This document shows, in pieces, positions 1-19,387 of a DNA stretch of 19,554 nt (its first letter is position 1; every line of letters starts with the position of its first letter). Origin of the DNA: Entophlyctis helioformis (taxonomy: Eukaryota; Chytridiomycota; Chytridiomycetes; Chytridiales; Chytriomycetaceae); the NCBI GenBank assembly GCA_025526915.1, contig JAHLKH010000332.1, positions 1-19,554 of the forward strand, read 5' to 3'. The notes under the pieces are model-generated. The model worked only from the letters and a program-made list of their open reading frames with translations. It was not told the origin of the DNA and searched no databases. Both the position numbers and the translations under genes were made by a program.

Positions 1-38
1 CAATATGAGCACGATCAACGGCGTGGCTCGTCACGGCC

Positions 39-3000
39 ATGCAGCTGATGATGCACCGGTCATGGACGCGAGGCATGGTGCACGCCAATGCGATCAAGAA
101 AGGCATACCACAGCCCAAAATGCCGCCAGCTGTCGCGCAGGAGCCGGCTCTACCAGACAGGCTTGACGGCAGCCTCTGCGCGGAAGCTGCGAATGATATC
201 TTCAGCAACCTCGCCAAGAGTGTGTGTGCCATGCTGGCGCAGCACTACATTGGAAGCCAGTCCGACCTGGTGTTTGCAGCGTGCCTCAAGCTTGTGCGCG
301 GTTCAACTCCCAAGCAAGCGACGGCGTGGACTACGTACCTGATCAAGAAAGCCAGGGACGCTGAGACCGCCAAGCGTGCTGCTGCCAACGCCGCCAAGCG
401 CGCTGCTGCCAAAGCTGCCAAGGACGCCGCAGACGCCAAGGATCCCAAGCGTGTAGCTGCCAACGCCGCCAGGGACGCCAAGCGCGCAGCTGCCAAAGCC
501 GTCAGGGACGCCAAGCGCGCAGCTGCCAAAGCTGCCAAGGACGCCGAGCGTGCAGCTGCCAAAGCCGCCAGGGACGCCGAGCGTGCAGCTGCCAAAGCCG
601 CCAGGGACGCCGAGCGTGCAGCTGCCAAAGCCGTCAGGGATGCAGCTGCCAAAGCCACCAGGGACGCCAGGCTTGCTGCTGCCATAGCCACCAAGAAGCC
701 ACGCGTTGGGAAGGCTGCCACTGAGGACGCCGTGCCAACCCACAAGCGGACCGCGTCCAGCACTTCAATCACCGACAAGGGCGGCGTAGCCAAGAAGGTA
801 CGCGTCGGCAAGGACCCCGCGCCAACCCACAAGCGGACCGCGTCCAGCACTTCAATCACCGACAAGGGCGGCGTAGCCAAGAAGGTACGCGTCGGCAAGG
901 ACCCCGCGCCAACCCACAAGCGGACCGCGTCCAGCACTTCAATCACCGACAAGGGCGGCGTAGCCAAGAAGGTACGCGTCGGCAAGGACACCACTGCCAA
1001 GGACGCCACGGCTGCCAACGGTGCTGCTGCCAAAGCCGCCAAGAAGCCACGCGTTGCTAAGGCCGCCGCTGCCAAGGATGCCAAGAAGCCATGTGTCGGG
1101 AAGGCTGCCACCACCGAGAGCGCGGCGCCGAGCCCATCGCCAGCCACGGAGGGCAAGGACGCACCAAAGAAGCCACGCAGCAAGAAGGCCGCAGCATCCA
1201 GCTCTTCCTCAGCCACAGAGGGCAAGGCCGTTGTCGTGCTACCTCCAGAGCTAGACGAGCTCGCTGCGATTGTGCTCAGTGAGTCGCTGTCGCATCCCGG
1301 CAAGTTCCATGCGCTGCGCGATCTCGCTGGGAGACAGAGCATCAAGCTTTGCCCGCAGCCGGCAAGCTGCGACCCTTTCGTTCTCATCACAGAGAGGACA
1401 CTCTTTTGGTCTGTGATGGGGACAAAGAAGGAGCGCGACAGCAAGGGGCAGGATCCTGCTTTGCAAGCACTGCGAAAGGAGCTACTTGCTGCGATCAGTA
1501 AGTTGCACTGCCTGTTTGTGCCATCTTTTTATGATTTGATACTAACAATCCACCTTTCTCAAAGAGCCTGGCTCGAAAAAGTTGACACTCAAGTCAACCG
1601 ACAGCGAGATCAAGAAGGCATTCAGCTCGAGTCGCGAGAATTGCGTCATGGACGTCCTGCTTCCCGGCCTCCGCCCCAAGAAAGGCCGGTATCAAACGCC
1701 GGCAGAAGCCGAAGCGGAAATGGAGGCAGCCAACACCAAGGCAAAGAAAGTGGCCAAAGCCAAGGCGACGCGAGCGGCCAAGAAGCAGCGTCTGCGTGGC
1801 AAGGAGCGCGAGGACTTCATCCAGGCTGCGGTTGATGCTCTACCCCCAGCGAGACCAACCAAACGGACACGGATGAGTAGCGTCATCTCGAACGGATACA
1901 GCGTCGGCCAGTTGGTTCGCGATTATCGCACAGACCGTCCAGAGTCGCCTTGCAGTATGTGCCGTGCTTGGATGCTTTGGTGCACACATCAATTCTAACC
2001 GCCGCCTTGCTTCGCAGGTCCCGACACGGCGTCTTCATGCGAGCTTCCCAGTCTTGCCAATGAGGCTGATTGTGTGCCTGATTACCTCAACGGCGAATGT
2101 GAGTTGCTGTGCCAATCCAGACGCGTACTTGCTGTCCACACCAACTGACATGCCATCCACAGCTGCCAAGCCAAAAGTGCCAAACCTTGTATGTCACTTG
2201 CATGCTAACCTCGCGCATTGGTGCACATGCATTGCACATCCCTCACTCATGCCATGGCATGACAGGCCAAGCGCAACTTCAATGCATCCCAGCGACTACC
2301 TGATGTTGCTGATGCCAACAAGCTGCTCGCCGAAAAGGGCTACCAGACTGTTCGCGTTGTCAGTCTAGACTGGGGCCAGCGGTACCTGTTTGGCGCGTCC
2401 AGCATGCTGCTCAACGTCAATACCGGCACATACACGCTCGAGGCCAACTATGTGCTCTCCTCTGGCTTATTTCAAGCTGAGCGCGAACTTCTGCGATGGT
2501 ATGTATGCAATGACTCTGTGCACTCTTGACCAGATCAACTCACAGCGCCTGTCTCTTGTGCCAGGTTCAATGGCCGATATGCCAAGGCAGCCGACATCCA
2601 TGAGGCGATTGCCTTCAAGATGGCAAAGCATGCCGATCCACGTCTCAGCAGGCGAGAGAGCGTTTTGGGATCTTCGCTGCTTGGCGTACTGCTCGACATT
2701 CCTGAATGCAAAGGTATGTTTTCTCTGCTTCTGGATGCCCATTGACATGATCGCCATGCTGCTTGATCGCCTGCTGATTGCATTGGAGTGGCATGGCATG
2801 GCATTCCACAGAAGGTCAAGGCCGAGCGTTTTTCCATGCGCAGCAACAGCATGTCTGATCGCGGACATGCTCTTGAAGGCATCATGAAGCTGGCAGGATC
2901 GACCACTGGCAAGCGCGCATCTCCTGCGTCTCAAGGCCTGCCCTTCGACCAAACAAAGCCGGCAGAGGACAACATTCCCGTTGTCTGGGCATTGGGCATG

Positions 3001-3553
3001 ACTTTACAGGCCAAGGTGGCCGGCATGCAGTGTTTGAGAAGTTTCTCATCAGGCATCTGCGGTCGTCTGGATATGCCTATGTGCGTCTGATGCCATGCTG
3101 TCCATCCATCCATCCATCTGTGCACCAACTGACCACACGATCATGCACACACACACACAGATCTACCGCTGCAACGAGAACCTGACCAGCCAGATGTGCC
3201 CGCAGTGCAAGCAACGGATCCCAGACAAGAACCGCACCAACCTGCGACGCTACGAGTGCACAGCATGCAAGGCCGTCTACCACCGAGACGTGCTTGGAGC
3301 CACCAACATCGGAATGGTCGCACTGGGGCATTTGCTCGATGGAGAGCGGCCGCTCTACTTGACGCACACAAAGGCCAGTCAGCCTGTCGTCCAGCAGCTT
3401 CCAGTACCTGAGCTGCCTGTCAACCAGCGGCCTCCAAGACCACCCGATCCGCCCATCGTCCTGCCGCCTCCACCACGGACACGGTCTGTCCGCGGGTCAC
3501 GAGCCAGCAAGGCACATGCAACTCCACGTGCTGTGACTTCCAGCACAATATGA
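39..3553 (+). CDS. Fz: Fanzor (eukaryotic TnpB-family RNA-guided nuclease), 8 exons
   Basis: Predicted exons are 39-1497, 1565-1954, 2018-2098, 2163-2188, 2266-2498, 2565-2713, 2812-3080 and 3161-3553: 3000 nt, 999 codons plus stop. Seen: RuvC-I Asp in SLDWGQRY (codon 2368, residue 687); VVWALG then GQGGRHAVFEKF, the block that precedes RuvC-II; RuvC-II Glu in NENLTSQMCPQC (codon 3176, residue 875); a zinc ribbon of CPQC and CTAC (C882, C885, C902, C905); RuvC-III Asp in HRDVLGATNI (codon 3287, residue 912). This order is diagnostic of TnpB/Fanzor proteins, which cut DNA guided by an RNA from the element's own end. Residues 1 to about 400 are Lys/Ala-rich repeats with KKPRV/KKVRV basic clusters, probably nuclear-targeting; the last 60 residues are Pro-rich. 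An upstream in-frame stop at 6-8 precedes Met39, but an earlier exon outside the window is possible. The frame switches at about 2853 and 2996, with opposite sign. Decay or sequence error cannot be told apart here. Confidence 0.85.
471..635 (+). repeat. 33-bp tandem repeat coding an 11-residue Lys/Ala motif
   Basis: Five consecutive 33-bp units begin at 471, 504, 537, 570 and 603 in Fanzor exon 1. Each codes a variant of RDAKRAAAKAV (K/R-DA-K/E-RAAAKA-A/V). Degenerate units flank them, from about 360 to 680. The 11-residue period with alternating Ala and charged positions predicts a long amphipathic helix. It resembles the 11-mer design of group 3 LEA proteins or lysine-rich H1 tails. That likeness is compositional and not evidence of homology. 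Confidence 0.85.
735..988 (+). repeat. 87-bp tandem repeat, three near-identical copies
   Basis: Copies start at 735, 822 and 909, exactly 87 bp apart, and stay in frame within Fanzor exon 1. Each codes 29 residues beginning PTHKRTASSTSITDKGG and containing AKKVRVGK, a basic cluster like a monopartite nuclear localisation signal. The third copy diverges at its last codons. Near identity implies recent duplication or ongoing homogenisation. Confidence 0.9.
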
Positions 3554-3609
3554 ATCGGGGCACCTCCCGATCGACCAATAGGGTCACTTTACGAAGGTGA
3601 GCACTTCGT
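3554..3609 (+). ncRNA. Candidate Fanzor guide-RNA (fRNA/omegaRNA) scaffold: two hairpins
   Basis: Directly after the Fanzor stop codon, ATCGGG (3554-3559) can pair with CCCGAT (3566-3571) across a 6-nt loop. Then ACGAAG (3591-3596) can pair with CTTCGT (3604-3609) across a 7-nt loop. In TnpB and studied Fanzor loci, the guide-RNA scaffold comes from the 3' end of the gene and adjoining noncoding DNA, and the guide is copied from beyond the element end. Location and structure fit. The assignment is inference, and two short stems can occur by chance. Confidence 0.35.
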
Positions 3610-4117
3610 TGGATGTGCCTCGCCCGCCTGTCGTCCATGCTCGTTGCTGACTCAACCTTCAATCGTGTGTTATGCTTGCCTTACATTCGACGCCTCTCGC
3701 GTCCAATTTAATTCAATGATTCTTGGTAATTGTTTGGATGTCGGGCATTTTGCCGGCAACTGCCGGCATTCCCTCGCCCTATTGCCCACCCCTCGTGAGT
3801 GATCAGAAGATGGCTTGTGCGCCATAAGCGACGATGCGTCGCGTGCCTTTACAGCCAGCCAGCGAGTCACCTGACACCCACGTGACCAAGTCTCAGATGC
3901 GCAGCAGATGCGCAGCGCCATAAAGCGCAGCCGCCGCCTCACCGCGCTTTCCCGCCATCCAACCAATAAGCGGACAATGATGAGTCGCACACCTCGAGAC
4001 GCCCTGCGCTGCTTCCGAGCGCGCGTGGGTTGAGAGAGAGCCAGTGCCCGCGCCCACACCACCTTGTTGTACAAGCGGCACTCGAACGACACTGAGTCCT
4101 CCTCCTCCTACTTGCCC

Positions 4118-5316: not shown

Positions 5317-8300
5317 ATGCCTCCAAGACGCACAAAGGCTGCACCAGCTGCTGCGGCCCCGTCTCAGCCAGCTGCATCGGCCGCTCAGCCTGTCGCAATG
5401 CGCTCGTTCTTGCCAGTGCCAGTCCCCGCCCAGGCTGCACTGCCGGCCCCAACCAGCACGCAGACATGCGCTGCGAGTCTGGACGAGCTGCAGCAGACGC
5501 TGAGAGTCCTGTCGTCGCAGAAGGAGTCATACCAGAAGCAGGTCAACATCCTCGACGGGCACATGAACGGCCGCCGCACCAAGCCGTTCGAGCGGCAGCT
5601 GTACACCACCCAGCGCCTGACGCTTGTCGAGCACATAGCCAAGATCGACCGTCAGATGCAGGCTGCGCTCGCTGCCGCCCTTCCTGCACCTGCACCTGCA
5701 CCTGCACCTGCACCGTCCCAGTCTGCACAGCAACAGGCACCACAGCCGTCCGGATCTGCTGGATCTTCGTCTCGCTCTCTGCGGCCACTCCAGTCTCGTC
5801 CAGTTGTGCCAGCCGAGCCCGTCGCCCAGCCTGCTCCTCAAGGTACTTGCATGCTGTCCAGATGCTGTTCGGACATGGCCATTCAGCACGCTGATCTGCA
5901 TGCGTGTCTGCCTGCGTGTCGCACAGTGTCACCAGCAGCGTCGAGTTCAGCCAAGCGCTCTGCACCCAGCCGTTCGGCTGCCTCGGCTGCTTCTGGAGCC
6001 GCAGACGAAACGACCGCCAAACGCCGTGCTACTCGGTCGACCGTATCTGCGCTTGCTACTCTTCCGGCTGCCGCTGCTGTATCTCGAACCCAGAGCGCCA
6101 TGCTGCCCAAACCAATGCCTCCAACTCCGCCTGCACCTGCACCTGTGCTGGCACCCCAGCCTCCTGTGATCTCCGCTCCGCCTGTCCAGCCTGCTGCTGC
6201 TCCGGCCATTGTCCCACAGCCAGCCAAGCGAGCTTACACGCGTCGCACACCAAAGAAGGATGCCCTTCCAGCTGCAGCTCCAGCTCCAGCTCCAGCTCCA
6301 GCTCCAGCTCCTCTTCCAGTCGCTGCTCAAGTCCCAATGCTTGTGCCCACGCCGGCACAAGCAACAGCAGCCGCTGTGTTCGCACCGGTTCCTGTGGCCG
6401 AGGCCGCCATGCCAGTCAAGCCAACTCGTGGCAGACCCAAGAAAGCCGCCACGAAACCCGAGCCTGAACCTGCAGCTGCACATGCCACGCGGTCCAAGCG
6501 GAATGCCGATCCAACTGCGCCAGTTCAAAACAAGGAGAATGCTGCTCCTGCTACTCTCCTCCCCATCCACGCTGCACAAGATCGCACGATCGCTGCAGAT
6601 GGCGTTGCCAAGGACACCAAGGAAATGGAGAAGCAGGTGCCAGCACCGGCCGACACAATGTCGGTCTTGGAGAAGATGTCTCTGGAGGTCAGCGACGCGC
6701 TCAGCTCGGCTTTGGCTTTTGCGCCATCTGGATCGTGCAGTGGCTTGGCACCAGCCGGCTCCAGCATGCAGCAGCAACAGCCTTTGCAAGACAAAGGCGT
6801 ATCGCGTGTAGACAGCGGCATCGAGTTGCCAGGCATTTTATCGACTCTCATGGCATATTTCCAGCAACCCGTTCAGCAGCAACAGCAGCCACTGGCTCGG
6901 AGCGCAACCTCGAATCCAGCCAAAACTAGCCATGGATCGCCACACACGTCCTTCAATGTTGGCCAGCAGTCATCCCAACCCAGCAGCAGCAGCACGCCAT
7001 CCTCAAAGATCATGCGATCTGCCAGCACGCCTTCGTTTTCCCTGTCGTTCTCGTCGCCTCACACAGAGAGTGCACGTCCATCGTCAGTATTGCACACGCC
7101 TGTTAGCCGCATCCAGTCGCATGCCGAGGCGTCCAGTACCATCAAGAAACTCAGCACCGCCACCGCAGCAACAATGCTGTTTGATGACAGCAACGACGAT
7201 GATTGCGAGATCATTGATCTCACTGCGTTTGCCTCGTCTATTGGCAGGCCAACGCCAGCGTTTGCTCCCTCGCTGCCATCATCTGCAAATACCGCGACGA
7301 CAAGGTCATTTGCGACGCCAAAGCATGTCTCGAAAGCCATCGAGACACCAGCCGGCGGCCCAGCTGTGATCAAATCAGCTGCAGCCACACCCGCTGCTTT
7401 TGGCTCGTCGTCTCTGGCCATCATCGATCTGGACGCTACGCCCAAGGCAAGCACAAACAAGCCGCTTGGGCAGCCGCTCTCCAAGACTGCCGACGCCGAC
7501 AGCGATGCGCTCATGGTGATCGACGATCTGCCCGACAGCGGTTTGCTTGCAAGCGTGACAGATCTCACTGCCATGGACGACAAGGACAACGAGAGCAGCG
7601 GCGACGACGACATTCAGATGGGGCGGTCTCGCGCACGCCCGGCGACCGTCACGCTCGGCAGCGGTATGGGTAGCGGCAGTGCAAGCACTGGCACGTCCGA
7701 CGGAATGGCGGTAGATGACAAGTCCGACGACATGGATGAAGACAACTGGGAAAACGAGATGCTCAAATGGAACCAGGGCACTGTGCGCGCGTTTGAGCTG
7801 GAGGCCGACTGGGTCAAGAAGACCATCGAGATGATTCCAGTGGAGGAGTCGCTGGAGCAGGCGCTCGAGACGGGCATTGCAGACCTCAAGGCGGAGTATG
7901 GCGACAAGGCGACACCGGCAGGCATGAGCATTGAGCTCATGAAACACCAGATTCGCGGTCTGGCCTGGCTCGTGCGCATGGAGAACCACGAGCTCCATGG
8001 CGGCATTCTTGCTGATGACGTGAGTCTGCTGCTTTGCCGATCCTGCTTGTTCAGTGTCTTGTTGACCGACGCAGACTGACGCGCACTTGTTGGCTGCTCT
8101 TGGAATCGTGTGCAGATGGGTATGGGCAAGGTGAGATGTCTCTTGGCTGCTTATCGTAGGTCGTGCTGCTCACTGACAGCCCTTTGTATGTGCAGACGGT
8201 CCAAATGCTGGCACTCATGATGCACCATCGCAGGAGACCCACCAAGGACCGGGGCGGCACGCTCATCATCGCACCCCTTGCGCTCATCACCCAGTGGCGC

Positions 8301-11174
8301 GACGAGACGATCCAAAAGTGCAAGGGCAATCTGTCCGTATATGTGCATCACGGCCCTGACCGCACCAAGCTCAAGAACGACCTGCGTCGCTTTGACGTGG
8401 TTATCACCACATACGCCGTCGCCACCATCGAGGCGCCGCGCGAATCCGTGCTGGTCAATGGCGAGATCGTCCCACCGTTCAAGGGCGGCCCGCTGTTCCG
8501 CGCGCGCTGGCACCGCGTCATCCTCGACGAGGCACAGATGATCAAGAACCGCACCACGAGGGCCTCTATCGCATGCTCGGCGTTGGACAGCATCTCCCGC
8601 TTCTCGCTCTCGGGCACGCCCGTGCAAAACAACGTGGACGAAGTGTACAGCCAGTTCCGGTTTCTGCGCATCCCGCACTGGTCCGACTACCGACACTTTT
8701 ACGAGCAGGTCACGAGCCGCATCCGCAAAAAGGACGAGCATCTCAACAAGATTGCGATCCAGCGGCTGCAGGTCGTGCTGGGCTCGTGTCTGTTACGGCG
8801 CATCAAGACGGCCAAGGACGAGAACGGCGATCCGATTCTCACGCTGCCCGAACGCAATGTGGACATGACCGAGGTCGACCTCAGTCCCGAGGAGCGCGAG
8901 TTTTACTCGGCGATTGAGACGTTTGCGTCAAACGAGTTCAACAAGTACATGAAAGAGGGTGAGGATGCTGTGCACCGTCTGTTTTGTGCAGTGTGCCATG
9001 TGGCGACTGACCAGATTGGTGTGTGTGATGTGCCGGGTGTGATGTGCCGGGTGTGATGTGCGATGGACAGGAAGCGTCATGAAGAACTATTCGAATGTGC
9101 TGGTGCTGCTTCTGCGACTGCGGCAGGCTGCCACGCACCCGCATCTTGTGAAGGAGGCGTTTGAGGATGCCGAGCGCGGCGTCTTTTCTCTACAGTTTAT
9201 GAGCCGCAGCCTTGGGTTCGGCGACAGGCCGACTGTGAGCGTTCTCGAGGCAGACGACTTGGGGCGTGTGGCTGCATCCTCGCTGTCGTCGGCAGGCCGC
9301 GCGGGACCCTCGATCGCGTCTGGAAGCGGGTCGGGAAGCGGTTTTGGAACTGGGTCGGGAAGTGGCAGCGGCAGTAAGAGTGCCGAGCCTGCTGGTCCTG
9401 TCGCGCTGTCCAAGGAGCTGCTTCAGACAAAGCGCATCATGAAGATGGCCGTCTTTAGCCGTGTCATGAACGCTGCCAAGGAAAACCTGCGGGCGTTCCT
9501 TTCGGAGGAGTGTCCGCTGTGTATCGATATTGTGCAGACACCGTCGATCACGAGCTGTGGACACATGTTTTGCCGCGACTGCATCAACGAGTACGCGCGT
9601 CTGTGTGCGTGTCGCGCGTTATGGAGTGGCACGAGACTGACTGGCACATGGCTTGACAGACACCTTCAGTATCACGGCACTGATGGCGAGGATGGCTCGG
9701 TGACGGCACCTTGTCCAGTCTGTCGTGCCAACATCAAGTATGTCTCCATGTGTTGTCCATGCCGGTGGCAAGTCACAACTGACGCAAGCATCCATGCATT
9801 CATCCACCCCTCTATCATGGGAATGCGCAGGACGGATGGTGTCTTCCCAGCAGCGTGGTTTGCAAGCCATGTCCAGCCGAGGCGCGAGATCCCCACAGTA
9901 GCTGCCTACCAGCCGACGCCGCAGCCCTCATCACAGCCAAACCTGTTTGCACCACAAGGCATCAAGGACCTGGTGACAGGCATGGACGGCCCTGCCAAGC
10001 CAGTCGACCTGCAGGCTGCGCTCCAAGGCCTTCACCCGGACGGGTAACTAGCACTCTGCCATCCCTCGTGCTTTTGAATTCGGCTAAATGGAGATGCTGT
10101 CGTTGGCAGAGACTACTCGTCATGGATTTCGTCATCCAAGGTCGACAAGATGGTCAAGGTGCTTGAAGCGACACGCGAAGAGGACCCGCTGATCAAGACT
10201 GTCGTGTAGGTGGCATTGGATGGCACTGGATAGCACTGGATGGCATTGGCAGAGGTGGGCCGACTGACACTGTTGGACAGGTTTTCACAGGTGACACACT
10301 CGAGAGATGGTGCAGAGGCGTCCTGATGGTGTGTGCTAACGCGGCCCTGCTGACATGCTTGCCGATGGACAGTGGACATCGAATCTGGACCTGATGGAAG
10401 TTGCGCTTCGCAAGCGACGATTCCGTTTCTGCCGGGTACGCAACCAATGAGGCACACTCGTCATTCTCATCCTCATTGATGGCCAAGCTGACGCATGCTC
10501 TGGTGTGCGCACAGTATGACGGCGGCATGAGCCACAGCGCGCGCGACGAGGCGATCCGAGAGCTGTATGACAACCGGTACACGACGGTCATTCTCGTGTC
10601 GCTCAAGTGCGGCGGCGTGGGTCTCAACCTCAACGTCGCGTCGCGCGTCATCATGATGGACCTGTGGTGGAACCCGGCCGTGGAGGACCAGGCCATCGAC
10701 CGCGTGCACCGCATTGGCCAAAAGAGCAACGTGAGCGTGTCGCGTCTTGTGGCCAAGGGCACGGTGGAAGAGCGTATCCACGCTCTCCAGGAGCAAAAGG
10801 TGTGTTGGTGAGTTGGTGTGTTGGTGCGGATGGACACTGACGCGTTGTGCACGGACGCACAGCGCAAGATTGCGGCAGGAGCATTAGGCGAGGGCGAGTT
10901 CAAGCTCGGCCGGCTCAGCATGCAGGAGCTGGTGTTTCTGTTCCGGCCGTCGGGTCTGGACGGTGCGGGCGATGCCGACGAGGGGCCGCGCAGACACCGC
11001 GGTCGTGGCCGTGCGGGCCGCCGTCGGGGCAACGCGATGGGCGGCGGCATGGGCGGCATGGGCGGCGGCATGGGCTGCACGGGGATGGAGGCCGACTGTG
11101 TCTGCGGGCAGTGTGCGGGCGAGTCTGACGGCGGCAGCCCGACCGACAGCGAGACGGACAGCCAGGCGGGCTGA
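5317..11174 (+). CDS. ULS1: SNF2-family helicase with RING finger (ULS1/Rad5/Rad16 class), 12 exons
   Basis: Predicted exons: 5317-5842, 5927-8019, 8116-8130, 8196-8958, 9071-9590, 9660-9737, 9831-10043, 10110-10205, 10281-10290, 10373-10435, 10515-10799, 10863-11174. They total 1657 codons in an unbroken frame. Residues 1 to about 590 are Ala/Pro-rich with an AT-hook RGRP (343-346). SUMO-interacting motifs EIIDL (603-607), AIIDL (673-677) and MVID (705-708) sit among acidic residues. The SNF2 core has motif I ILADDMGMGKT, motif II DEAQ (989-992), motif III LSGTP, a C3HC4 RING (CPLC at 1280 to CPVC at 1324) inserted between lobes, motif [14 protein letters not shown], and motif [13 protein letters not shown] (from 1518). 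A RING inside the helicase defines the Rad5/Rad16/ULS1 class. Several N-terminal SIMs and no evident HIRAN domain favour ULS1, a SUMO-targeted ubiquitin ligase and translocase acting on chromatin. The tail is Arg/Gly-rich with CVCGQC. The ULS1 versus Rad16-like assignment needs phylogeny. Confidence 0.88.
8116..8130 (+). other. 15-nt microexon coding MGMGK of helicase motif I
   Basis: The upstream exon ends ..GGILADD at 8019, followed by GTGAGT. ATGGGTATGGGCAAG is preceded by TGTGCAG and followed by GTGAGA. The next exon starts ACGGTCCAA (TVQ) at 8196 after GTGCAG. Only inclusion of these 15 nt rebuilds the Walker A sequence DDMGMGKTVQ. Flanking introns are 96 and 65 nt, all phase 0. Skipping would keep the frame but remove the ATP-binding lysine. 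Confidence 0.88.
10281..10290 (+). other. 10-nt microexon completing helicase motif IV
   Basis: The exon ending at 10205 codes ..LIKTVV. The frame then meets a stop unless GTAGGT at 10206 is used as donor. Ten bases, GTTTTCACAG, lie between acceptor GGACAG and donor GTGACA. With the exon starting at 10373 they give [16 protein letters not shown], the expected motif IV. Flanking introns are 75 and 82 nt. Skipping would shift the frame. Confidence 0.85.
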
Positions 11175-11449: not shown

Positions 11450-14056
11450 ATGACCACCGATTCCGGCGCCGCAGCCCCCGACGCAAAGACGCTCGTCTTC
11501 GAGCCGCCCGTGCACGCCGGCCACACGCCGCACCTGGCGTCGTTTGACGAGTACCAGCGCCTGCACAAGGAGAGCATCGCAGACCCCGACGCCTTCTTTG
11601 GAAAGGTGCGTCTGTCTCGCTGTTGTCTCACGCCTGCCTGGTTGTCTGTCTCACGCCTGTCTCACACTCGCCATTGCGTATCTGGCGCTGCAATGGCGTG
11701 CTCGCTGCCTGCCCGCCTGCCCGCCTGTCTGTTTGCCCGCAGCTCGCAACGGACCTGCTGACGTGGTCCAAGCCCTTCACGGCCGTCTCGTCTGGGTGCG
11801 TGCGTCTGTCTCTTGCCTCGCCTTGCCTCGCCTTGCCTGTCTCCTGCCGAGCCACCCTTGTCTCGCCTCGCCATGCCTGCCATCGCCCCCATCAAGCTTC
11901 CTCTCACGTGCACCACTGCCCGCTCGTGACCCCGTCCAAGACACCCCCCATGCCACCACCTGACGAGCCCCTGTCAGAGTGACTAACACTCGCCCCGCTG
12001 CTCAGCGACTTCCAAGAGGGCGACTGCGCCTGGTTCCTCGACGGCGAGCTCAACGTGTCCGCCAACTGTGTCGATCGCCACGCCCTCGCCAACCCCGACA
12101 AGCCCGCCATCATCTGGGAGGCCGACGAGCCGGGCGTGCACCAGACCTGGTCGTACAAGAAGCTGCTGCAGGAGGTCTGCCGCTTTGCCAACGTGCTGCT
12201 CAAGTACGGCGTGCGCAAGGGCGATGCCGTCGCCATCTACATGCCTATGGTGCCCGAGGCCGCCGTCGCCATGCTCGCCTGTGCCCGCATCGGCGCCATC
12301 CACTCGGTCGTCTTTGCCGGCTTCAGCGCAGAGGCTCTCCGTGACCGCATCCTCGACGCAAGCTGCAAGCTGCTCGTCACCGCCGACCAGGGCAAGCGTG
12401 GCGGCAAGACGGTGCATCTCAAGAAGATCGCCGACGAGGCCCTCGAGGGATGCCCCCTTGTGTCAACCGTCATTGTCTACCAGCGCACGGGCGACATGAA
12501 CGCTCCTTTCAACCCGCCTCGCGACGTCTGGTGGCACGAGGAGACTGTAAGTTTGCCATCAGATCGCGATGCTTCCCGCACACGCCTTGCACACGCGACC
12601 GGCCAGCTGACTGACTGCCTGCCTGCCTGCAAACCTCTGTGCAGTCCAACCAGCGTCCATACTGCCCGCCTGTTGCCATGAACAGCGAGGACCCCCTGTT
12701 CATGCTCTACACGTCTGGCTCGACTGGAAAGCCAAAGGGCGTGGTGCACACGCAGGCTGGATACCTGCTTGGCGCAGTCACCACCTGCAAATACGTCTTT
12801 GACATGCACCCCAACGATGTGTTTGGCTGCATGGCTGATGTCGGGTATGTGCCGCAGGATCTACTCTCTCTCTCTCTTGATGCCAGCTTGCAACCTCCCT
12901 CTGAACCTCGTCTGACTTTGTCCCATCAGATGGATCACCGGCCACACGTACATTGTCTACGGCCCTCTGGCCCTTGGTGTCACCACGGTCATGTTCGAAA
13001 GTGTCCCCACCTACCCCAACGCTGGCCGCTACTGGTGAGTCGCAACGTTTTCTATGGCTCTCGCTTGGACCCCCGCAACTCATATCGCATCTGCATATAT
13101 GTGCGCAGGGATCTTGTCGACAAGCACAAGGTCACCCAGTTCTACACCGCCCCAACCGCCATCCGCTCGCTCCGTCGCCTTGGCGATGAGCACGTCACGC
13201 CGTACAAGCTCGACTCGCTCCGCGTCATTGGCTCTGTCGGCGAGCCCATCAACCCCGAGGCTTGGCTGTGGTACCACGAGGTCGTCGGCCGCAAGCGCTG
13301 CATGGTCGTCGACACGTACTGGCAGACCGAGACCGGCTCGCACGTCATCACCCCATTCCGGGCGTCTCGCTCACCAAGCCTGGATCTGCAACCCTGCCCT
13401 TCTTTGGCATTGATGTTGCCATCCTCGATCACGCGACGGGCAGAGAGCTCACTGGAAACAACGTCACGGGTGTTCTGGCCATCCGCAAGCCGTTCCCGTC
13501 CATGGCCCGGACCGTGTACAACAACCACAAGCGCTTCCTCGACACGTACCTCAAGCCATACCATGGCTACTACTTCACCGGAGATGGTGCCACGCGCGAC
13601 CAGGACGGATTCATCTGGATCGAAGGCCGCCTCGACGATGTGATCAACGTTGCTGGTCACCGACTGAGCACGGCCGAGATCGAGGCTGCCCTCATCCTGC
13701 ACCCTGCTTGCGCCGAGGCTGCTGTTGTTGGCGTCCCTCACGATGTGACTGGCCAGGCCATTGTCTGCTACGTCACGCTCAAGTCTCACGGCGACCTCCA
13801 GGCCCTCGAAAAGGCGTTTGTCGGCCAAGTCCGTGCCCACATTGGTCCCTTTGCGACACCTCAGCGCATCGTCATCACCAGCGATCTGCCCAAGACGCGC
13901 TCTGGCAAGATCATGCGCCGCATTCTCCGCAAGATCGCTGCAAAAGAGGTCGTCCTGGCCGATGCATCTGATGATGAGTCGCTTCGCAACAAGCTCGGCG
14001 ATCTCAGCACGCTTGCCGACCCTTCCATCGTCAAGCACCTGCTTGAAAAGTTCTGA
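11450..14056 (+). CDS. ACS: Acetyl-CoA synthetase (AMP-forming), 6 exons, one apparent frameshift
   Basis: Converts acetate, ATP and CoA to acetyl-CoA, AMP and PPi in cytosol and nucleus. Predicted exons: 11450-11605, 11743-11795, 12006-12546, 12645-12844, 12930-13034, 13109-14056, giving 667 codons if one base is restored; the family is usually about 650-670. Seen: the N-terminal [11 protein letters not shown] block, P-loop-like [11 protein letters not shown] (residues 272-282), ACS-specific CMADVGWITGHTY built across an intron, DTYWQTETG (about 420), [20 protein letters not shown], and [11 protein letters not shown], whose lysine (about 619) is the acylation-regulated catalytic residue of the family. 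The frame changes at the C run 13351-13354: GSHVITP is in one frame and [17 protein letters not shown] in the next. One missing C explains it and no intron fits. In a central-metabolism gene a sequence error is the likeliest cause. Introns 1 and 2 are the longest here (137 and 210 nt). Confidence 0.93.
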
Positions 14057-14314: not shown

Positions 14315-17300
14315 TCACATTGTGGCCATCATCTGCGATGCATTTGCGGCAGTCGACGGCCGGCCTTGCAGGCCCATGCCCATGCCCACATGCACGTCGT
14401 CCATCGGCATGTACACGGCAGGCGGCGGCCGCTGCCCGCAAACACATTGACATTCTGCGCAAACACAACAGCAGTGTCCTCGCCGACGTTGATCGGGTCG
14501 AAATCGTACCGATGCAGCACATGCGGCGGCACGTGCGGGTTGTCGGACAGATACTCGTTGCGTGGATTGAAACCGAGCCGCAGTGGCACCGGTCTGCAGA
14601 CGCGCGTGGTCGTTTCTTGTCCAGCACCAGACGACCTTGCGGCGGGTGGACGCCGAGAGCGCGGGGCATCCGCCAGCACTTGGTGCACACCGACGTTGAG
14701 CAGATCAATGTAGTGGTCCATGGTCTTGAGGAACACGGAGCGCGGTGCCATTTGGGTAAAGAAGATGGTGCCGCTGCTGCATGTCCCATTCGAGGAGCGA
14801 GAACGCGACGTAGCTCTTGTTGGACTCGGTGCTGGTGCCTGCGGTGCCGTCCATGTCTTGGCCGGCGGCTTCTGCAATGGCCAGCTGCGATGCGCGCTGT
14901 GCCTTGGTCAGACGCGGACCTGGCGGACGCGTGCCTCGCAGCTTGCCCGCAGACGCCGAGCCGTTGCTGCCGCCTGACGCGCCGTTGGACGAGCGAGCGA
15001 GCCTGTTGCGGGCGTGGCCGATCCGGCCAGACCCATGCCGTTGCCCGTCATCATGCCCGTGGTGCTCATGCCGCCGACGCCAGCCATGAGGTCGACTCTG
15101 CCCATCTGGTGCACGCTCGATGACGAGCTGTTGTTGCTGCCCGCGCGTGTTCCGGCACCTTCAACAGCCGCCGCCGCAGCAGCAGCAGCCGCCGCCGCAG
15201 CCGCAGCCACAGCCGACGAGGACGCATCCGTGTGAATCGACGACGGCGACATGTTGGGCGGCGGAGAGGTCGACGACGGATCGCCCGCAGCAGCAGCCGC
15301 AACAGCCATGCCGATGCCCATGCTCCTGCCAGTCGGCGCAGCCTCGGCCACATCAATGCGTCTCAGCCACGAAACGTTTCCTTGACGCTAAACTTGCCCT
15401 TGCCCTTGTTGCGGTGGCGCTTGTCCATCCACGCGACGGTAATGTACCGCTTGCAGTGGGGCGGTGCCGGGTTGACCAGCAGATCCATGACCGACTTTTC
15501 CCACATCTTGTCAATGTCCAGACGCACGGCCTGGTAGGTGAGGTACTTTGGCATGTTGATGACGTTGGGCACGGCGTACAGCGACAACATGCAGTCGTAG
15601 AACACGTCTTGGATTCCGTTGAGGACGTCGGGCGGCTGCGTTGCCACGTCAATGACCTGGTAGTTGACGTGTGCGTTGCCGACACGGACATGCGGCAACG
15701 AGCACGTGCGACGGCCCTTTTCAAACAGATCCTTGGGACGCCATTTGCCGGTGCGCTGCTTGCCGCCGCCGCCGCACTCGGAGCAGAACATGTACGCGAT
15801 CGAGCACGACTTGCACACGTACTCGGGCTTGAGGTCCGACATGGCGTGCGTGGGCGACATGCCACGGCCGGTCGCCATACCCAGCACGCGCTTGCACACT
15901 TCGCAGTCGACCGTTGGCACGATGCTGCGGCTGCGCTTCTTGCTATTGATCGTCGCGCCGCTTGCCATGGACGCGCGCGGCGTCTCGCCCGACGACGTTG
16001 ATGATCCCAGATTCTGTCCGCCCGTCTGGCTGTCCGTCGACCCATTCGACACCTGGATCGACGCCATCGAGTCAAACTGCGACGATGACGACGGCAATGC
16101 CCACAACGAGCTGCCAGTCGATCGACCGTCGCACTCTGCGCACGTGACATTGAACAGCGCCTCGACATGCGGGCCAGTCTCGCCGCCGCGCAGGTAAATA
16201 ATGCCCAGCTCGTTGCTGCACTTTGCGCAGTGGAACACCCGCTCGAGCAGCTTGCGACGCGTGCTGGGCATGTTCCATACGCCGCCGCCTGTGCTGCTGA
16301 GCGTGTTGGTCAGCGTCGCCATGCCGGCATTGTCCTGGCTGCCGCTGACCATGCCCGTGGCAATGCCGCCCAGCCCAAACGTCGACACGGACCGAGCTGA
16401 CACCTGCGCCGGAATCCGATCGCAACAGCTTGCTCGACGAGCGCCTGGCTGGCTCGTGTTTCGGCGGCAAAAACGCCTGCGTGTCGGTTGCCGACCCGGT
16501 GTTGGACGCCGACTGTCCATGAGCCGATGGCGGCTGCTGGCCGCCGGTCTGGATCGTTTCCGTGTTGAAGATGGGCATGTAGCCCTCGGGCGATGTGCGG
16601 CGACGCAGATGCGGCCGTTTGGCCACATGGCCACGATCGGTGTGGTGGTCCGACTCGCCGTGCCCGCCTCCGGACGGGTCGTCATGACCAGCGGCAGGCG
16701 TCGGTCCAGGCATCGGGCACTCGAACACAGACGGCGCCATGCCCGTGTTGAGCATGGACGCCAGCCCACTGCGCGAGTCGTACATGGAAAAGAACTGGTT
16801 GCCGCCCACCCGCCGTGGAGGTGCGGGTGGTGGTCTTCCGGCGATGGCAGCTGGTCAAACGACTGGTGGCGGTAGTGGTTGGCATGCCCCATTCGCTGCT
16901 GCTGATGGTGATGTTGGCCCTGCATGACATCCTGGCCGTGCAGATCCGTCATGCCCGGCAGCATGGCGTTGGAATTCTGCAGGCTGTCGAGCGAGACCTG
17001 CGACGAGTACAGGGACGACGGCTGCAGCATGTGTGGCGCGTAGATCGGCGCCGACGTTGCACGCACAATCGGTGCCGGCGGGTGCGGGAACATGGGCTGC
17101 GATCCCGTGAAGAAGTGGAACATCTGGTCGTTGTTGGAAAACCGCATCATGGGCGGCAGCGACGCGTCCATGGCCTGCGGCGTTGGCAGGCCGCCCGCGA
17201 GCTGGCTCGCCAGCTGCTGTGCATCCATCGACGCGTCGGCGACATTGGTGTTGGCGCTGTTGGTCATGTTGGCACTGGCGTCGTGGTGCAGCATGTCGCT

Positions 17301-19387
17301 GCTAGACGTCGAGTGGCCGGAAAGATTGACAAACTGGCTGGCTTCCCGGTCCTGCGCAGCAGTGAGCGCCTCGTCCTTGAGTCCAGCGAATCCATGCGCC
17401 TCCATGACGCGTTGCTCGCGCTCGGCTTGCTGCTGGCCGTGCGCTTCCTGCTGTTGCTGCTGCTGGTACGCTCTATCATGGTTGTCGTAGTAGTGGTAGT
17501 CATGTGTCAGCGGCTGCGAATGGTACCGACTCGGGACAGCATCCGTCTGGCCGCCGCTCTGGCCCTGCACTTGGTGCTGGTTGTGCTGGTTCTGCAACTG
17601 GCGCTGCTGGCGCTGCTGGTTCAGCTGCGACAAGTGACGGAACGAGTGGCGCAGCGGAGGCGGTGTGCGCGACGACATGCTATCTCCCAGATTCAGCTGG
17701 CTCTGCACCAGGCTGTTGATGCTCGACGTGAACGACTCGCCAAGCTTGTCCGAGCCCGATTGCTGCGACGTGGACAGCTCCAGCGACGTTGCAGCCAAGT
17801 TCCCCTCGGACGGCTCGCCCAGCCGCTCCATGAACGACCGACTGAACCCTGCCGTGCCGATCAATGGGACAGCGTCAAGCGACCCTTTGCCAAGCCCCTT
17901 GATGTTGGGCTGATCGTCCTGCCCAAACGAGTACTGCCATGCAGCCGTCTGGTTGGACCCGGACGTGCTGGCACCCAGATCAGCATTGCTCTGCGCTTCA
18001 TGGATCGTCGTGATCCCGCCGTAGCCGTTGGATGGCAAGTACTCTTCGGGAATTGAGTCAATCGCCTGCGAGATGCCATGCACCGACGACTGCTGGGGGA
18101 GACCGCTGCTCCGACGCGATGCCGGGCCCATGGTCGTGTTGGACGTGATGGACGATCGGCCTGAGTCGCCAAAGCCGTGGCCCTTTGCCAGGTGGAACAG
18201 CGACGGGTCAGACGACGACATGGAGGACGCGAGAGTGGTCTGGGACGATCGCTTGCTCTCGTAGTCAAAGCGACGGTCAGACGAGTCCTTGCGCCACATC
18301 TGGTACGGCTTGGCTGGGATGTGCGAAAAGCGCGAGCATCGTATGCAGTGGTTGGGATCGGTGGTTGACGGATGAGAGGCAGCGTGCGAGACGCGCAGAT
18401 ACACATTATTGTTAGTGGCCGAGTCAAGGTGGGCAGAAACACCAGCCAGTATTGGTAGATGCATAAAAGACGGCTCTGGAGCGGTTCTGGTGCACAGAAT
18501 CCAAACGGCTCCTTTGTTTGGATGGCCGCACGCTGGAAATCGGCCAGGCAGTCGAGGATGGGTACACAAAGACTGGATTTCCAGCCCCCCATAATGGCGA
18601 GATGCTGGCAAGAGGGACATGGGAACAGGGTCGACAGACATGGGGTCGACGAGGGGGTTTGGGGGGACGGGGAAAGGGAGGGCCCACCTGACGTTGACGA
18701 ATACTCGAGAAGAGCGTTTGACGAAGGCGGCCTTGAAAAAGGCGGCATCATAATGTCCGCTCGCGTCGAGTCGCGCGACAGCTGGCTGTTGTTGTTATTG
18801 ATGCATTGCAGCATCGTCAGCAGGTCGTCCTGCGGCTCATGCGACGACGTGGACGTGGACACGTGCAGCGCATGCTCCGCGTGGCTCTCGCCCAGCACAT
18901 GGCCGCTGCCGCCCGACGTCGTGTACTGGGCGAGCGACATTTCCTCTGCGCTCGTGAATTGCGACGACGGATTCGGCGGTGTTGACATGCCGCCGTGCTG
19001 GCCGCTTTGCTGGTGATGTTGGCTGAGGTGCTGGTTTTGGCCGCGATACGGGCCATCGGACGCATGGTGGCCTGCAGAAGCGCTGTGCTGGTTCTGGTAG
19101 TGCTGCAGCAGACGGTTGGGGAAGTAGGGCGGAAAGTCGGATGCCGTCGAGGACGACGACTGCATCATGTCGGACGAGAGCGGATTGAGCAGGTCGGCAG
19201 ACGACAGCCGGAGATCCTTGCTGAAGTGGGGCGCGGCCGCGGCTGCAGCCGACATTTTGGTCATGGCTGCGTACGACGGGTGCGCGCTGATGTGGGCATT
19301 GGATGCGTTTGTTGCGCCGACAGGCAGACGCGCAATGGTCGCTTGCGCCAGCACAGATCCAGAGAGCTCGTTCGTGTCGTCGGCCAT
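14315..19387 (-). CDS. Large unrecognised zinc-binding protein with disordered N-terminus; frame broken in several places
   Basis: It starts at the Met at 19387 (MADDTNELSGSV), with a Ser/Gln/His-rich disordered half. One or more introns begin at about 18687 (CAG|GTGGGC on the minus strand) and end near 18315-18420; the acceptor is unresolved. The cysteine region follows: CAKC..CAEC (about 16230-16130) and CEVC, then CKSC..CSEC (about 15905-15775). It continues into GRRTCSLPHVRVG, FYDCMLSLYAVPNVINMPKY and KRYITVAWMDKRHRNKGK. Beyond that lie a poly-Ala tract, SYVAFSLLEWDMQQ, FLKTMDHYIDLLNVGVHQV and HRYDFDPINVGEDTAVVFAQ. It probably ends MGMGLQGRPSTAANASQMMATM at stop 14315-14317, each block plausible but frames differing. 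Frame changes fall near 16808, 16400, 15378, 14995, 14775 and 14441; they sit mostly in homopolymers or short repeats. I infer zinc-binding from CxxC pairs and do not know the function. Either the assembly is faulty here or the gene is decaying. Confidence 0.6.
15160..15215 (-). repeat. GCC/GCA trinucleotide tract coding poly-Ala
   Basis: GCAGCAGCAGCCGCC-type repeats on the plus strand code about 15 consecutive alanines in the minus-strand reading frame (SSSAVAAAA..). Mixed codons suggest a constrained protein tract as well as slippage. Confidence 0.7.

Follow-up and report, generated by a model that had tools for sequence, protein, structure and literature searches.

The locus and its exons

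The window, a contig from the genome of the chytrid Entophlyctis helioformis (Chytridiales) analyzed at its full length of 19,554 nucleotides, begins with part of a gene that apparently encodes a fusion of two nucleases, an XPG/FEN1-like domain and a RuvC nuclease of the TnpB/Fanzor lineage. Judged by its sequence, the stretch up to position 3794 comes from a DNA transposon of about 9.8 kb, here called the element, of which it forms the 3' end in a decayed copy; the element occupies over 100 loci in this genome, in diverged families. On the forward strand, the window holds exon 12 (1..1497, its 5' side cut by the contig start; 2197 bases long in copy L017), which carries Lys/Ala-rich repeats and then a conserved stretch, followed by exons 13 (1565..1954), 14 (2018..2098), 15 (2163..2188), 16 (2266..2498), 17 (2565..2713), 18 (2812..3080) and 19 (3161..3553), the last ending, after a proline-rich tail, in a stop codon at 3551..3553. 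Exon borders were inferred from reading frames, GT-AG sites and relatives. The Lys/Ala-rich repeats lie at 360-1060, and the number of their units varies between copies.

An earlier note on this DNA had placed a Fanzor gene with an intact catalytic triad at 2266..3553. Its view of the lineage stood and its view of the extent did not, as this interval holds exons 16 to 19 only, of a gene with about 19 exons that continues upstream and that in L017 is in one frame with the XPG/FEN1-like domain. The residues it had named are where it put them: the RuvC-I Asp codon at 2368..2370, in SLDWGQRY of exon 16, and, in exon 19, the repositioned Glu codon at 3176..3178, the zinc-ribbon Cys codons at 3197, 3206, 3257 and 3266, and the RuvC-III Asp codon at 3287..3289; its NENLTSQMC and RDVLGATNI also match the sequence. 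These three acids and four cysteines are kept in all 21 aligned copies, the window included. The last-exon frame of the window matched PF07282 (Cas12f1-like TNB) with an E value of 2.2e-10, while the exons before exon 19, too short, gave no profile match singly. The spliced C-terminal part matched the same profile at 6.9e-11 in the open relative L013 and at 4.3e-11 in L028, and in NCBIfam the L013 part matched guided_TnpB (2.5e-6) and IS200_TnpB (4e-6), both below cut-off. The pattern D{P}G..E..CxxC..CxxC..D appeared in none of 20,000 shuffles of the L013 protein. The Glu stands six residues before the zinc ribbon (ENLTSQMCPQC), which is the Fanzor-type E_alt position; the Fanzor traits given in the accessible text of PMC10711439 are this placement and, "near exclusively", DPG at RuvC-I. 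By its PF07282 match, residue pattern and similarity to guided_TnpB, the C-terminal part of the protein belongs to the TnpB/Fanzor lineage.

The gene is not intact in the window, where the catalytic residues are present but, with exons 17 and 18 broken, not in one frame. Compared with the L017 reading, exon 12 changes frame near bases 20-25; against the aligned copies, the window lacks bases near 2640, in exon 17, and a base near 2999, in exon 18, that is present in the other 20. The reading of the exon model from exon 13 meets a stop at residue 307 of 513. Because of the frame breaks near 20-25, 2640 and 2999, the window copy is to all appearance dead. A programmed frameshift near 2999 was considered and rejected, the break being private to the window among the 21 copies. 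Five of these copies (L013, L020, L025, L027 and L028) keep an unbroken frame between exon 13 and the stop; L018 and L021 do so too apart from an insertion, and L011, L012, L017 and the remaining copies are broken.

In the genome searched (29.57 Mb in 482 contigs), 2266-3553 has at least 42 matched stretches (best 40 of 282 candidates scored), at least about 19 of them matching from end to end at 94-98% identity and further ones at 85-92%. A protein search with the window reading returned two matches, each a hypothetical protein of Entophlyctis helioformis. In many copies (L013, L014, L015, L016, L019-L021, L023, L024 and others) the 5' side faces a nearby contig end, which may mean that the assembly broke within the repeat or that the copies are subtelomeric.

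A probable long gene joining two nuclease-like parts

Copy L017 could be laid out as 19 exons with GT-AG introns (one GC-AG), at the same positions in L028. Its spliced reading is stop-free from MGIIGQ.. to just past RuvC-I, with DWG at residue 1712; exons 1 to 16 are in phase, and the first stop, at residue 1802, follows a private break in exon 16. Because these exons join without a stop, a single natural copy has the N-terminal domain and RuvC-I in the same frame. The order of XPG-like before Fanzor exons recurs among the genomic matches listed, which comprise 72 XPG-like loci (from 192 exon matches) and 125 Fanzor loci (from 336). Of the 72 XPG-like loci, 35 are followed on the same strand by a listed Fanzor locus, 0-16 kb downstream, against about 2.4 expected by chance, and 27 of the 35 pairs are spaced 5.4-6.9 kb; a Fanzor locus upstream, or on the opposite strand, was found for none of the 72. 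By frame and co-linearity, this is apparently a two-nuclease fusion, XPG/FEN1-like and Fanzor-lineage.

We compared the coding parts by the ratio of nonsynonymous to synonymous substitutions (dN/dS). For L017 against L028 and L042, respectively, it was 0.21 and 0.42 in exons 2-4 and 0.44 and 0.47 in exon 12; from RuvC to the zinc ribbon, three pairs taken between families gave 0.40, 0.33 and 0.62, and three from the window's own subfamily gave 0.22, 0.30 and 0.41. Both nuclease parts look to be under constraint, and the linker less so. Synonymous distance drops from 5' to 3', from 1.57 in exons 2-4 (L017/L028) to 0.29 between RuvC and the zinc ribbon (L013/L028), as if the 3' part had been exchanged or were younger.

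Identity of the N-terminal domain

The best Pfam match of the N-terminal domain was PF12813 (XPG_I_2) for six of eight diverse members scanned singly: L057 (E = 2.3e-4, 21.2 bits against a cut-off of 24.2), P0005 (0.0087), P0004 (0.013), P0003 (0.014), L059 (0.019) and L017 (0.12); for P0004 and L017, 5_3_exonuc_N came second. Several members start with MGxxG. In an alignment of 29 members, whose rows were gathered with the family profile and so are not independent, seven acids are conserved: D58 (28/28), D108 (27/28), E194 (25/27), D196 (27/27), D221 (28/28), D223 (28/28) and D281 (27/28). Their order (D, D, ExE/D, DxD, D) and rough spacing are as in FEN1, whose seven active-site acids are D34, D86, E158, E160, D179, D181 and D233. 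With a match that is weak by profile, we call the domain XPG/FEN1-like rather than a member of that family.

Ends, target sites and truncation of the element

Copies of the element end alike at window position 3794 (..CCCACCCCTC), the flank beginning at 3795, and just inside this 3' terminus a palindrome, TGCCGGCA-AC-TGCCGGCA, can be read from the sequence at 3751..3768. The element reads GAGGGG.. and ..CCCCTC at its two ends, where about 14 bases form an imperfect inverted repeat. Copy L011 measures 9839 bases and is flanked by exact 9-bp repeats, AGATCCCAT. Both ends were read in eight elements, of which three (C121, C144 and C264, the last read by eye because its end varies by one base) have an exact 9-bp target-site duplication (TSD), three a shorter or imperfect one (C14 and C95, 7 exact bases; C15, 7 of 9), and two (C98 and C13) none. 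The 5' 182 bases of the element occur in at least 40 copies at 93-100% identity (best 40 of 84 candidates) and the 3' 91 bases in at least 40 copies (best 40 of 85 candidates), both ends also at loci of diverged families. Five 5'-truncated copies (L018, L019, L025, L026 and L027) are cut at differing points and keep the 3' part; no TSD was found for these five.

No transposase match was found among the scanned open reading frames (ORFs) of the element, its first 2 kb or so being left out of the scan. An origin like that of a long interspersed nuclear element was rejected, since full copies carry 9-bp TSDs and truncated ones none, and no match to a reverse transcriptase came from the ORF scans. 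A Helitron origin was rejected as well: the truncation and the palindrome fit it, but the TSD does not, nor does the absence of a match to Rep/helicase.

Weighing the readings

We think it probable that one gene of about 19 exons encodes, within a transposon, a protein of about 2000 residues in which an XPG/FEN1-like domain is followed by a long middle part with Lys/Ala-rich repeats and by the TnpB/Fanzor RuvC nuclease. Motifs, reading frame, co-linear loci, element termini, TSDs and coding constraint were all observed in its favor.

A number of results weigh against this reading. None of the four full-length copies read (L011, L012, L017 and L028) is open throughout; 37 of the 72 XPG-like loci have no listed downstream Fanzor locus, some of them lying at contig ends; and in linker exons 6-11 dN/dS reaches 0.60 (L017 against L028) and 1.00 (L017 against L042). 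The NCBI gene models split the gene into short separate hypothetical proteins, P0001-P0007, of 258-520 residues; the wrong-frame tail of the P0001 model is a gene-model artefact. PDB sequence searches gave no match for the protein parts. For the N-terminal domain, no match to Pfam XPG_N, XPG_I or XPG_I_2 reaches cut-off, two of six members in one scan (L056 and L050) had other, insignificant best matches, and a genome search with PF00867 found the host's own XPG/FEN1 genes and not the element exons. Alignment of the domain profile with FEN1/XPG by hhalign did not rise above shuffled columns, scoring 18.4 against 15.0 (standard deviation 2.9) for the shuffles and, in another run, 14.2 against 14.8; the AlphaFold model of the XPG-like part of P0004 was poor (predicted local distance difference test score 41), and with it Foldseek found nothing better than an E value of 0.24. 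Finally, RuvC-I is DWG, not DPG, in L013, L020, L028, L042 and P0001, and DWG is classed as TnpB-like in the accessible text of PMC10711439, where the pattern has 120-160 residues between the RuvC D and E, against 188 here. As the DPG trait is absent and the gap is 188, we file the protein as a Fanzor-lineage variant and not as a canonical Fanzor. The DWG at 2368-2376 of the window and in its relatives, together with the Fanzor-type repositioned Glu, combines a trait of TnpB with one of Fanzor.

The split gene models would be expected if the element carried two neighboring genes, an upstream XPG/FEN1-like one and a downstream Fanzor, each with its own start and stop and working in parallel. 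There are methionines within the linker exons, and Fanzor elements with a separate endonuclease gene (GIY-YIG in PGv-1) are described in the accessible text of PMC3627910. We nevertheless regard this as unlikely, as L017 runs from exon 1 to past RuvC-I without a stop or an out-of-phase join, and the interval between the domains is taken up by coding exons and their introns of 58-97 bases, so that no room is left for a promoter region.

It is also improbable, in our judgment, that the acids coincide by chance in a different fold, the protein then being a Fanzor whose large extension is not an XPG/FEN1 nuclease. The failed profile-profile and structure tests and the Pfam matches below cut-off speak for this; against it stand XPG_I_2 as the best match in six of eight members, 5_3_exonuc_N as the second in two, and the seven acids kept in 25-28 of 27-28 rows. 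A Fanzor gene standing alone with its triad intact, as in the earlier note, is very unlikely. The residues and zinc ribbon are at the stated places, but the frame is broken near 20-25 and in both exon 17 and exon 18, and it continues upstream, which refutes this reading for the window copy unless the breaks are assembly errors.

Introns and the 3' noncoding end

Introns of the long gene are more alike between copies than both flanking exons in 14 of 18 cases for L017 against L028 and in 15 of 18 for L017 against L042. Intron distances in these comparisons were 0.125-0.29 (Jukes-Cantor, splice sites excluded), and synonymous distances over exons 2-15 were 0.69 and 0.79, respectively. Within the window's subfamily, five of the six introns tested are less diverse than both neighbors; distant families gave few or no intron matches. 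That the introns are genome-wide introners was not supported: a 32-base core of intron 3 occurs at 23 places and a 55-base core of intron 14 (an intron at 2099..2162 in the window) at 72 when up to 3 mismatches are allowed. The 19 exact intron-14 places, checked by eye, are all at Fanzor or element-3'-end loci; the other 53 of the 72 were not checked singly. This pattern of intron conservation is a separate puzzle of interest.

Downstream of the stop codon, the noncoding end of the element (3554..3794, forward strand, 241 nucleotides) folds strongly, with a z score of -4.13 equaled by none of 200 dinucleotide shuffles, and between families it is 0.85 identical to that of L028 and 0.83 to that of L042. 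It had no Rfam match, and the structure that RNAalifold derived from 22 element tails offered little variation for testing. Lying where a guide RNA is expected, it is a candidate guide RNA scaffold.

Proposed working and comparison with known systems

For cleavage, guide RNA, flap trimming and a role in transposition we infer the following sequence. The guide RNA would consist of the element's folded 3' end, extended by read-through into the flank; the Fanzor part would make an RNA-guided break at an empty or allelic site; the XPG/FEN1-like part would trim flaps or ends of this break; and the element would then be copied in by repair. A bolder version, which we hold doubtful, is a self-sufficient two-nuclease transposon without transposase, whose RNA-guided RuvC cutter and FEN1-like flap nuclease, both on one polypeptide, copy it by cut-and-repair and whose introns are functional RNAs or guide targets. 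If the fusion is real, the in-frame union of a Fanzor and a repair-type nuclease would suggest that ends or flaps are processed after the guided break, would allow a direct test of the cut-and-copy idea and would represent a natural dual-nuclease architecture; with diverged families at over 100 loci, this genome also offers a natural series for guide RNA study.

As far as the accessible text of PMC3627910 and PMC10432273 describes them, SpuFz1 and its transposon SPu-1 of Spizellomyces punctatus share with our element the setting of a multicopy chytrid DNA transposon, the RuvC domain with repositioned Glu and four-Cys zinc ribbon, the folded 3' end and the lack of a transposase found inside. 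In contrast to SPu-1, which has about 2.1 kb, one ORF of 633 residues, 33-bp terminal inverted repeats (TIRs) and a TA TSD, the Entophlyctis element has about 9.8 kb, about 19 exons, about 2000 residues, an XPG-like N terminus, a 9-bp TSD and DWG. The Fanzor1 families of Mucor and others with MuDR-like TIRs (PMC3627910, in its accessible part) likewise have a 9-bp TSD and no MuDR transposase in the element; ours differs in its short imperfect terminal repeats (GAGGGG..) and added N-terminal domain. The 9-bp TSD is shared with the MuDR superfamily; long TIRs were not found, nor was a Mutator-like element transposase among the ORFs scanned. With the Fanzor1 Helitrons CRe-1 to -3 of Chlamydomonas, as presented in the same text, it has in common 5'-truncated copies, common 3' ends and a palindrome near the 3' end, but here 9-bp TSDs flank the full copies and none was found for truncated ones, and for the CRe elements the reverse is reported.

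Among Fanzor1 proteins bearing an added domain, PpFz1 has an FRI domain, which the accessible text of PMC11423790 discusses with cyclophilins and in which no XPG/FEN1-like fusion was seen. The N-terminal domain is like the XPG/FEN1 family in its seven ordered acids, its MGxxG start in several members and its weak XPG_I_2 matches, and unlike it in having no significant profile or fold match and in sitting in a transposon, joined in frame to a Fanzor. For animal-virus contigs, PMC11071296 names "Fanzor flap endonuclease homologs (Fendons)", with no fusion as far as the accessible text shows. Literature searches for Fanzor with XPG, with a PIN domain or with Entophlyctis found nothing. In the literature searched, we found no description of a Fanzor paired with an XPG/FEN1-like domain, and its novelty is not certain. 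A further large Fanzor survey appeared in Science Advances in 2023.

Neighboring genes

Beyond the element, the window contains on the forward strand a gene for an SNF2 helicase with a RING finger and Helicase_C (about 8160-10811) and one for an AMP-binding enzyme with an acetyl-CoA synthetase N terminus (about 11983-14056). A Gln-rich open frame of 1143 codons, which had no Pfam match, lies on the reverse strand at 15363-18794.

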